Source: Sterolibacterium denitrificans (GTDB lineage: Bacteria > Pseudomonadota > Gammaproteobacteria > Burkholderiales > Rhodocyclaceae). From it: a DNA stretch of 64,000 nucleotides. The stretch is from assembly GCF_900174485.1 (NCBI RefSeq), contig NZ_LT837803.1, positions 1,565,305 through 1,629,304 of the forward strand. The letters are read 5' to 3'. Numbering within the stretch: the stretch's first letter is position 1; each line of letters opens with the position of its first letter. Below are positions 19,490 through 64,000 of this stretch, piece after piece. The notes beneath the pieces are model-generated. The model made no database searches. It saw nothing but the letters and a program-made list of their open reading frames with translations, and was not told where the DNA came from. A program made the position numbers and the translations under genes.

Positions 19490-20240
19490 GCTCTCGTTCT
19501 TTCTCTTTCATCGGTACGGCAGGTTGCAGTTCGGGCGTTCGTTGCCGATTGCGCGCCAGCACGTCGCGCAGCAGCGGCAGGGTCAGGGGGCGTTTGAGTT
19601 CGAGCGAGGCCTGATCGGCTTCGTTGAGCATCCACAATAACGAAGGCAGGTCGCGGCGGCCATGATGCAGAAGGTAGTCGATCAGCGCATCGTCGATGCG
19701 CATGCCGCGCGTCGTTGCGTGGTGCCGCAGCGCCGCGGCTTTTTCGATGTCGCCCAGCGGGTGGATTTCGTAAATCAGCGCGGCGCCGATGCGGGTGCGC
19801 AGGTCTTCGCGCAGTTCCAGCCGCAATGGCGGCCTGTCGCCGGCCAGCAGCAGCGCCAGGCCGACCAGGCGGGCGGCATTGAAGGTGCGGAACAGGGTGA
19901 TCTGGGCGGTTTCGTCGAGCGTATCGACGTCGTCGATGATGATCAGGCTGCCGGGCGGGGCGTTCAGTTCGCCGCCCAGGTCGCTGCCGCGCATGAAGCA
20001 GACGTTGCGTCCGGCAGCCAGGGCGGCTTCCCGGGCGCCGGCAAGCAGGTGGCTGCGGCCGCAACCGGGTTCGCCCCACAGATAGATCTGGTCGAAAGCG
20101 CCCGGATCGCCCAGCGCCCTGATGCGCGCCATGGGCTCGTGGTTGTCGCCGACGATGAAATTGTCCAGCGTCGGCGGGGCGGCCTCGGGGCCGAGGCCGA
20201 GCAGCAGTTGCTGTTGCCGGCGCGGATTCATGTGCATCAT
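19470..20240 (-). CDS. hda: DnaA regulatory inactivator Hda-like AAA+ protein
   Basis: A 256-residue DnaA-related ATPase. It lacks the DnaA DNA-binding domain. Walker A is GEPGCGRSHLL near residue 55 and Walker B LIIIDDVDTL near residue 99; the segment QQQLLLGLG at the N-terminus is the clamp-binding motif that ties Hda to the replication clamp. Hda stimulates DnaA-ATP hydrolysis after initiation. Its ATG overlaps the stop of the permease gene upstream (ATGA). A second start at 20231 is possible. Confidence 0.9.
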   Translation of the reverse strand: MMHMNPRRQQQLLLGLGPEAAPPTLDNFIVGDNHEPMARIRALGDPGAFDQIYLWGEPGCGRSHLLAGAREAALAAGRNVCFMRGSDLGGELNAPPGSLIIIDDVDTLDETAQITLFRTFNAARLVGLALLLAGDRPPLRLELREDLRTRIGAALIYEIHPLGDIEKAAALRHHATTRGMRIDDALIDYLLHHGRRDLPSLLWMLNEADQASLELKRPLTLPLLRDVLARNRQRTPELQPAVPMKEKEREHEPGAV

Positions 20241-62438: not shown

Positions 62439-63215
62439 ATGAACTATTTGCGTTCCGTGGTCTTTTTGCTGGTGATGCTGGTGGTTACGCCGCCGTATGC
62501 CCTGCTGATGATTTTCTGCTTTCCCCTGCCGCATCGGCTACGCCGCTACAGCGCCGTGCCCTGGGTGTATTTCACGATCTGGCTGATCAAGCATCTGCTT
62601 GGCATCGATTACCGGGTGCTGGGGCGTGAACACATTCCGGACGAGCCGGTCGTGATTCTCGCCAAGCATCAGTCGGCCTGGGAGACGGTCGTGCTGCAGC
62701 AGATATTTCCGCTCGCATTGTTCGTCTGGAAGAAGGAGCTGCGCTGGCAGATTCCTTTCTTTGGCTGGGCGCTGGCGGTGATCCCGATGATCGCCATCGA
62801 TCGCCAGGCAGGCAAGCATGCATTGCGTGATCTGGTGCGCCAGGGCAAGCTGCGCCTAAGCCAGGGCTATCCCATCGTGATTTTCCCGGAGGGTACCCGG
62901 ACGGAGCCGGGCCAGCACCGTACCTTCAAGACGGGTGGCGCGCACCTTGCCGTCAAGGCCGGCGCCAAAGTGCTGCCCGTGGCGCTGAACTCCGGCGAGC
63001 TCTGGGGGCGCAATGCCTTCTTCAAGACGCCGGGTACGATCACGGTCAGCGTCGGGCCTGCGATTTCGACCGCTGGCCTGCGCACGGCTGAAGTGAATGC
63101 GCGCGCCGAAGCGTGGATCGAGGCTGAAATGGCACGTATCAGCCCGCATTTGTACCGTCATGAGATCGCGCAAGATACGCAAGCAACGGAATCCGCAGCT
63201 CGATCTGTGGGTTGA
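62439..63215 (+). CDS. plsC: 1-acyl-sn-glycerol-3-phosphate acyltransferase
   Basis: 258 residues, inner-membrane enzyme making phosphatidic acid. An N-terminal hydrophobic segment (SVVFLLVMLVVTPPYALLMI) is followed by the catalytic block: ILAKHQSAWETVV has His and, four residues later plus one, Glu instead of the common Asp (HX4E); the glycerol-phosphate site is IVIFPEGTRTEPGQ near residue 146. Its product feeds pssA and psd. The 3' end overlaps the next gene by 56 bases. Confidence 0.94.
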   Translation: MNYLRSVVFLLVMLVVTPPYALLMIFCFPLPHRLRRYSAVPWVYFTIWLIKHLLGIDYRVLGREHIPDEPVVILAKHQSAWETVVLQQIFPLALFVWKKELRWQIPFFGWALAVIPMIAIDRQAGKHALRDLVRQGKLRLSQGYPIVIFPEGTRTEPGQHRTFKTGGAHLAVKAGAKVLPVALNSGELWGRNAFFKTPGTITVSVGPAISTAGLRTAEVNARAEAWIEAEMARISPHLYRHEIAQDTQATESAARSVG

Positions 63216-63672
63216 GCCGCGTCGGCTCGATCCGGCAGAACGTTGGTGCGACGGCATGCGTTTGCCTTTTCTGGGCGGTGATTTGACGCTCTGCCTGACG
63301 ACTGCGCATGAAATGGCCGCAATCGAGGGCGAAACCCTGCATCTGCCCTTGCCGCCCGGCGCCACGCCACGCCAGATTCAGGATGGCGTCGAGGCTTGGC
63401 TGCGGCAGGAAGCCGCCGTGCTGATCGCTGCCGATCTGGCGGCGGCAGCGCAACGGACGAACGGCGCCGGCACCTTGCCGCAATGGGCCTTCTCGTTTGC
63501 CGCGCAGGGCGACTGGGTGCAGTTGCATGCGGATGGTTCGTTGCGCTTCAACTGGCGGCTCATTGAATTGCCGCGCGCCGACATGGCGCGGATTGTCGCT
63601 GCCGCCGCCGCGGATCTGGCAGCGCGCCATGCCACCGCCGACCTCTGGGAAAACGATTTGCCGGCGCCATGA
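63160..63672 (+). CDS. YgjP-like protein without metal-binding motif
   Basis: 170 residues. The order of segments is that of the YgjP/DUF45 metallohydrolase family: a strand with RLPFLGGDLTLCL, then GETLHLPLPPGATPRQIQDG, a helical VEAWLRQEAAVLIAADL, a strand DWVQLHADGSLRFNWRLIEL and a final helix. In active YgjP proteins the strand contains RWGSC and the helix HELxH; here they read DWVQL and IVAAAAADL, so the zinc ligands are gone. It overlaps the plsC end and its stop overlaps the start of the intact ygjP-like gene (ATGA). The start is uncertain; later ATGs exist. Identification rests on my reading of the fold pattern. Confidence 0.6.
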   Translation: MRSRKIRKQRNPQLDLWVEPRRLDPAERWCDGMRLPFLGGDLTLCLTTAHEMAAIEGETLHLPLPPGATPRQIQDGVEAWLRQEAAVLIAADLAAAAQRTNGAGTLPQWAFSFAAQGDWVQLHADGSLRFNWRLIELPRADMARIVAAAAADLAARHATADLWENDLPAP

Positions 63673-64000
63673 GCATGGATTTTTTTCAGCAGCTTTCCCT
63701 GTTTTCCGTGCCCGGCCGCGCGCCGGATCGGCCGGCCACGACCCCCGCGCCTGGACAAACGCCGCCGAAAGCGCCCCGGCAGCGCCACCTGCATCTGGGC
63801 AATCAGATCGTCGCCTATACCCTGCGTCAGGGACAGGGCCGGCGGCGGCTTTCCATGACCATCGACGAACGCGGTCTGATCGTTGGCGCGCCGGCACGCA
63901 CCACCCTGGCCGAGATCGATGGCTTCATCCATGCGCATGCCGCATGGGTGCTGGCCAAGCTGGCTGAATATACCGAGCGCCACGCGCGTCGTCATCTGAC
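63669..64000 (+). CDS. YgjP-like (DUF45/M48-type) metal-dependent hydrolase, N-terminal part
   Basis: Cut by the window end; about 110 codons are seen. After a Pro/Ala-rich lead-in, the segment IVAYTLRQGQGRRRLSMTID and GLIVGAPARTTLAEIDGFIH followed by AAWVLAKLAEY match the start of YgjP-like proteins. The zinc motif would lie beyond the window. The ATG overlaps the stop of the degenerate relative before it. Confidence 0.75.
   Translation, partial: MSMDFFQQLSLFSVPGRAPDRPATTPAPGQTPPKAPRQRHLHLGNQIVAYTLRQGQGRRRLSMTIDERGLIVGAPARTTLAEIDGFIHAHAAWVLAKLAEYTERHARRHL

Follow-up and report, generated by a model that had tools for sequence, protein, structure and literature searches.

A gene for a YgjP-like protein that lacks the metal site of its family was identified directly before an intact ygjP gene on the genome of Sterolibacterium denitrificans, close to the end of the 64,000-nucleotide stretch of contig NZ_LT837803.1 that was analysed (termed the window). 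This zinc-less protein is almost certainly a dead paralogue with a selected function. The most telling feature of the pair, which was absent from the first-pass annotation of this DNA, is the presence of clamp-binding-type motifs at both N-termini. Taken together, the dead paralogue, its conserved pairing with ygjP, the selection acting on it and the near-universal motifs suggest a clamp-docked hydrolase with a pseudoenzyme subunit as the best reading of the locus (features in Table 1).

Table 1. Features of the zinc-less gene, the adjoining ygjP and the upstream neighbour, with positions in the window
Feature	Position	Strand	Evidence and remarks
plsC-type acyltransferase gene, directly upstream	62439..63215	+	PF01553, 84.9 bits; neighbour, outside the proposed mechanism
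Gene of the zinc-less YgjP-like protein	63160..63672, stop included	+	170 aa; ORF call, PF01863 match, relatives
QLDLWV, residues 13-18 of the zinc-less protein	63196..63213	+	Hexamer-type (QLxLxL) clamp-binding-like motif; 60/64 relatives
DWVQL, residues 118-122, at the RWGSC position	63511..63525	+	W alone retained; hhalign and tallies
E136 in LIELP	63565..63567	+	E in 50/65 zinc-less proteins; His (LIHLP) in 59/59 aligned partner YgjPs
AAAAD, residues 148-152, at the zinc-binding HELAH position	63601..63615	+	hhalign and tallies
ATGA overlap of zinc-less stop with ygjP start	63669..63672	+	TGA 63670-63672, ATG 63669-63671; most relatives have a short overlap or gap
Intact ygjP, 5' part	63669..64000	+	Gene runs past the window end to about 64487
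QLSLF, residues 8-12 of YgjP	63690..63704	+	Pentamer-type clamp-binding-like motif; 62/64 partners

The zinc-less protein and its intact neighbour

At its 5' end, the zinc-less gene shares 56 nt with the plsC-type gene. Also upstream are genes which we take, from a reading of their proteins without a Pfam match, to be glyS and a gmhB-like phosphatase gene, and the order glyS, gmhB-like, plsC-type before the zinc-less gene was also found at loci L034 (a Sterolibacterium sp. MAG), L035 and L036. No SOS box was found within the window.

The first-pass annotation had described a 170-residue YgjP-like protein without zinc ligands before an intact ygjP, in translational overlap with it, and both the description and the overlap held up. 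Residues 21-138 match PF01863 (YgjP-like, or DUF45, the family of E. coli YgjP) with an E value of 1.7e-7 and 31.9 bits, above the curated family cut-off of 26. A search of the source genome recovered the protein independently at 30.6 bits, with the adjoining intact ygjP at 193 bits, and NCBIfam gave only a chance match to the zinc-less protein (14 bits, where the cut-off is 570). As the PF01863 match begins at profile position 48, the N-terminal domain of YgjP is absent. Alignment of the zinc-less family to intact YgjP with hhalign showed homology over 134 columns (98.6% probability, E 1e-15), placing GDWVQL opposite TRWGSC and AAAAD opposite HELAH, which confirmed the earlier claim that the RWGSC and HELxH positions had been replaced. 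The tryptophan of RWGSC and the NWRLI block were found to be retained. Compared with the YgjPs of PF01863, the zinc-less copy is without metal ligands, RWGSC and N-terminal domain, and it carries an additional clamp-type tail.

The same loss was seen among 65 zinc-less sequences. The catalytic glutamate was retained in none of these, with alanine in its place in 46; the first metal-site histidine was kept in three, the second in none and the third in one, and no sequence retained more than one of the four residues. Arginine and cysteine of RWGSC were each kept in 0/65 and the tryptophan in 61/65, and in the NWRL block W was found in 64, R in 63 and L in 64. The zinc-less protein thus lacks HExxH, the third histidine and RWGSC of a metal hydrolase and is placed by sequence in PF01863; the loss of the metal site and of the R and C of RWGSC indicates that it is probably a non-enzymatic homologue and not a YgjP enzyme. 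The partner YgjPs were chosen partly by HExxH and WG[STA][CA], so that their HExxH is in part present by construction. Five partners outside that filter (HEAAH, HETAH and WGSY variants, L133 reading WGSY) also have HExxH, and the third histidine, which was not part of the filter, was kept in 59/59 aligned partners.

An unrelated fold, named in the first-pass annotation as grounds for discarding its reading, is not indicated by the profile evidence; this part stands on profiles, as AlphaFold modelled the zinc-less protein with low confidence (pLDDT 41, from four sequences). This model was used for element order only, and it places a long helix, strands and a helix in the order of YgjP. At the C-terminus of the zinc-less family, D-L-[FW] was found to be nearly invariant (DLW at 63640-63648 here, DLF in relatives) and to align with the RFW that follows the third zinc ligand of YgjP. 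Loci L117 and L118 were considered as zinc-less candidates and rejected, being true YgjPs with WGSA replacing WGSC.

The intact YgjP (whole gene at L004:2010-2828) has 272 residues with RWGSC, HELAH and NHGARFW. Of 120 genomes sampled from across the source's phylum, 107 had YgjP-like hydrolases, and the annotation of E. coli YgjP reads putative metal-dependent hydrolase and nothing more. The E. coli protein (167 aa) has neither a clamp-type tail nor the N-terminal domain. For the YgjP of a congener (270 aa), a model built from three sequences is confident in the catalytic part only, and its first 34 residues have a pLDDT below 50 and are modelled as disordered. A Foldseek search with this model matched selecase, abylysin, jannalysin and yeast Wss1 (probability 1.00, with a modest best E value of 1.5e-3), and proabylysin was found by sequence search with YgjP at E 0.004. 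The partner YgjP can thus be assigned a minigluzincin-like catalytic fold from the confident part of the model; the minigluzincins have been described as including Wss1 and DVC1/Spartan (PMC4559962).

Conservation, selection and origin of the gene pair

The source's taxonomic family was covered by a protein search of 61 genomes and an alignment search of 398, which together show the zinc-less gene in about 103 genomes, as counted among the matches listed at E values up to 7e-35. A second match was also present in 101 of these genomes, the other two being incomplete (79% and 59%). Outside the family, no zinc-less relatives were found at E 1e-18 in a class-wide search. The ygjP gene was found to follow directly in 64 of 65 loci read, with the remaining locus stopping at a contig end. 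Relative to where the zinc-less gene ends, its start was placed at -62 to +116 nt in the 59 loci measured, mostly as an overlap of 1, 4 or 23 nt or a gap of a few nucleotides. The counter-case named in the first-pass annotation, that of a broken fragment absent from relatives, is contradicted by these counts.

Phylogenetic analysis placed the zinc-less proteins in a single clade with no intact YgjP inside. The tree sets this clade apart from the paired YgjPs, with a grouping of both together not rejected (AU p = 0.22). An origin as a simple tandem copy of the adjacent ygjP is not favoured by the tree, and the pair need not be the result of a recent duplication of this kind. The N-terminal domain has been lost in most zinc-less copies, including that of the window. 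Full-length zinc-less YgjPs with this domain, likewise situated before ygjP, were observed at L015, L018 and L067-L075, where they carry LQLDLPL or LQLELP[LA]; these appear to be an intermediate state linking intact YgjP with the short form.

The zinc-less gene is under purifying selection. Among 58 close pairs its dN/dS had a median of 0.24 and a maximum of 0.45, compared to 0.17 for YgjP, using only pairs with dS under 0.6, as the values from all pairs were saturated. Could the gene be a functionless duplicate in decay? Loss of the metal site, and of the N-terminal domain from most members, would agree with such a relic, which in turn predicts frameshifted relatives or a dN/dS near 1. Both predictions are contradicted by the data: the reading frame was open in 65 of 65 loci read, dN/dS did not exceed 0.45, 19 positions were invariant across 16 diverse members, and the proteins form one old clade across many genera. 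A relic or fragment was rejected on the basis of dN/dS, open frames and this clade, and is considered highly improbable. With its metal site lost and a median dN/dS of 0.24, the protein would qualify as a pseudopeptidase, that is, an inactive homologue kept by selection. The pseudoenzyme paired with YgjP that the first-pass annotation had put forward is borne out in so far as homology, conservation of the pair, metal-site loss in every member and purifying selection are concerned.

N-terminal motifs of the clamp-binding type

The partner YgjP begins with MSMDFFQQLSLF, and the tail of the zinc-less protein reads NPQLDLWV. Among the partner YgjPs, QLxLF or QLELP[LF] was identified in 62 of 64 and QRDLF in one. 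The sole paired YgjP without a clamp-type motif is that of L133 (G271), the locus with WGSY in place of WGSC, where the zinc-less partner keeps QLALPL. Of 64 zinc-less proteins with an intact N-terminus, 60 carry QLxLxL or a motif close to it; the four variants are QRGLF, QRTLF, QTSLRL and one around QLELP (L071), two of them being of the QxxLF form. Short motifs can arise by chance. Shuffling of the tails would yield the motif about 1.4 times among 59 and 0.8 times among 65, statistics that overstate independence because the sequences are related.

Several properties of the motifs were in keeping with clamp binding. The fixed positions are limited to Q, L, L and F/L, and position 3 varies, being K, E, S, P or N in the YgjPs and A, S, K, D or T in the zinc-less proteins. 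The zinc-less motif alternates between hexamer and QxxLF forms among relatives, and it has persisted after loss of the domain that separated it from the core. In the window it is encoded inside the plsC overlap; at L035 plsC ends well before the zinc-less gene and the motif is still present. The published clamp-binding consensus is QL[S/D]LF or QxxLF, with the hexamer QLSLPL in Hda (PMC12309361, PMC4549789), and both motifs match it position by position. As a control from the same genome, Hda (about 19554-20210, minus strand, L168) was found to begin with MNPRRQQQLLLGLGP, in which QLLLGL is a clamp-type motif of the QLxLxL form at a similar N-terminal place to that of the zinc-less protein.

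DnaN of the source genome has 45% overall identity to that of E. coli and keeps 18 of the 20 residues which we take to line the E. coli groove. The genome thus has a clamp whose groove is, as judged by these residues, canonical. The sequence mark of a sliding-clamp client, QxxLF or QLxLxL in an exposed tail, was found in the pair, and the YgjP tail is disordered in the model. On this evidence it is quite likely that one protein or both bind the clamp, and probable that both tails would bind DnaN.

Among 52 unpaired YgjPs from the source's order, 14 were also found to have such a tail (shuffle mean 0.4), and outside it 0 of 25. As the other 38 in the order and all 25 outside are without the motif, docking on the clamp is not essential to the YgjP reaction. 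No C-terminal clamp motif was found in YgjPs without an N-terminal one. QLxLF or QLxLxL-type tails were observed on unpaired YgjPs at L020, L022, L027, L030, L031, L076, L077, L081, L098 and L109, and clamp-type tails seem to have been gained or lost several times.

Possible role of the pair at the sliding clamp

In the reading we tentatively prefer, at somewhat short of an even chance, a YgjP hydrolase docked on the clamp has the dead paralogue as its partner subunit. The pseudopeptidase would act together with the active YgjP from the next gene, and short, flexible N-terminal motifs (QLxLF in the enzyme, QLxLxL in the dead subunit) would dock both on DnaN. The active subunit would be a zinc hydrolase of the minigluzincin/Wss1 type. 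Most likely it is a peptidase, which may trim DNA-bound protein near replication forks, with SPRTN as the parallel (PMC9240642). The dead subunit would most likely be a regulatory or substrate-holding partner of YgjP, much as alphaMPP is for betaMPP (PMC11266112). DnaN is dimeric and offers two equivalent sites (PMC12309361), which the two subunits may occupy jointly. In this explanation the binding to the clamp, the heteromer and the substrate are inferred. That the zinc-less protein is a partner of YgjP and not its competitor is an evenly balanced proposition, and proteolysis of DNA-bound protein by YgjP is a good deal more doubtful.

Two other explanations keep the protein functional. In one, it would be an antagonist that takes the place of YgjP on the clamp or caps it, holding the hydrolase off forks until needed. 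The two proteins bear the same kind of motif and would compete for one groove, and the zinc-less gene is made first, in the same transcript direction as ygjP; against this, the motif types consistently differ (pentamer versus hexamer), which fits joint occupancy equally well, and an antagonist is considered unlikely. The other, marginally less likely again, is a heteromer that does not involve the clamp, with the motifs serving assembly or another hydrophobic contact. Its precedent is the mitochondrial processing peptidase, in which inactive alphaMPP is paired with active betaMPP and of which prokaryotic two-gene versions exist, the M16B pairs (PMC11266112), and the zinc-less gene and ygjP likewise form a fixed two-gene unit encoding an inactive and an active homologue. 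These peptidases belong to a different metallopeptidase family (M16) with no known clamp motif, and the pairing described here is known from the genes. Against such a heteromer, the motifs fit the clamp consensus position by position, down to the exchange of pentamer and hexamer, and they are also found on unpaired YgjPs of the order, which have no partner.

The clamp-docked reading can be compared with known clamp clients such as Hda, PolC, DNA polymerases and transposases, which similarly carry QL[S/D]LF or QLxLxL motifs in flexible tails (PMC12309361, PMC4549789). No zincin, or zinc-less relative of one, was among the clients in the literature found, and the likeness described here is one of sequence. 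A further comparison is offered by SPRTN/Spartan and Wss1, metalloproteases of DNA-protein crosslinks, as the catalytic domain of YgjP models like Wss1 and the minigluzincins. SPRTN has a PIP box with which it binds PCNA, the clamp of eukaryotes, and the review consulted gives it no dead partner subunit (PMC9240642). YgjP differs from SPRTN and Wss1 in its accessory domains and in its N-terminal clamp motif of bacterial type, and the likeness is that of the model. An active and a dead YgjP sharing both sites of the DnaN dimer could represent a two-subunit bacterial protease for DNA-protein adducts, a counterpart of SPRTN and PCNA, a proposal that is speculative and rather improbable as a whole.

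YgjP, pseudopeptidases and clamp motifs are each of a known kind, and their combination is, as far as was found, undescribed. In the open-licence papers searched, no connection of YgjP or DUF45 with the sliding clamp was found, nor a dedicated bacterial zinc protease for DNA-protein adducts. Within this literature, the dead partner would rank as the first pseudopeptidase predicted as a sliding-clamp client. Furthermore, a clamp-docking motif conserved in one large lineage would put YgjP at the replication fork, giving the family a testable job, which may be the proteolysis of protein adducts on DNA.
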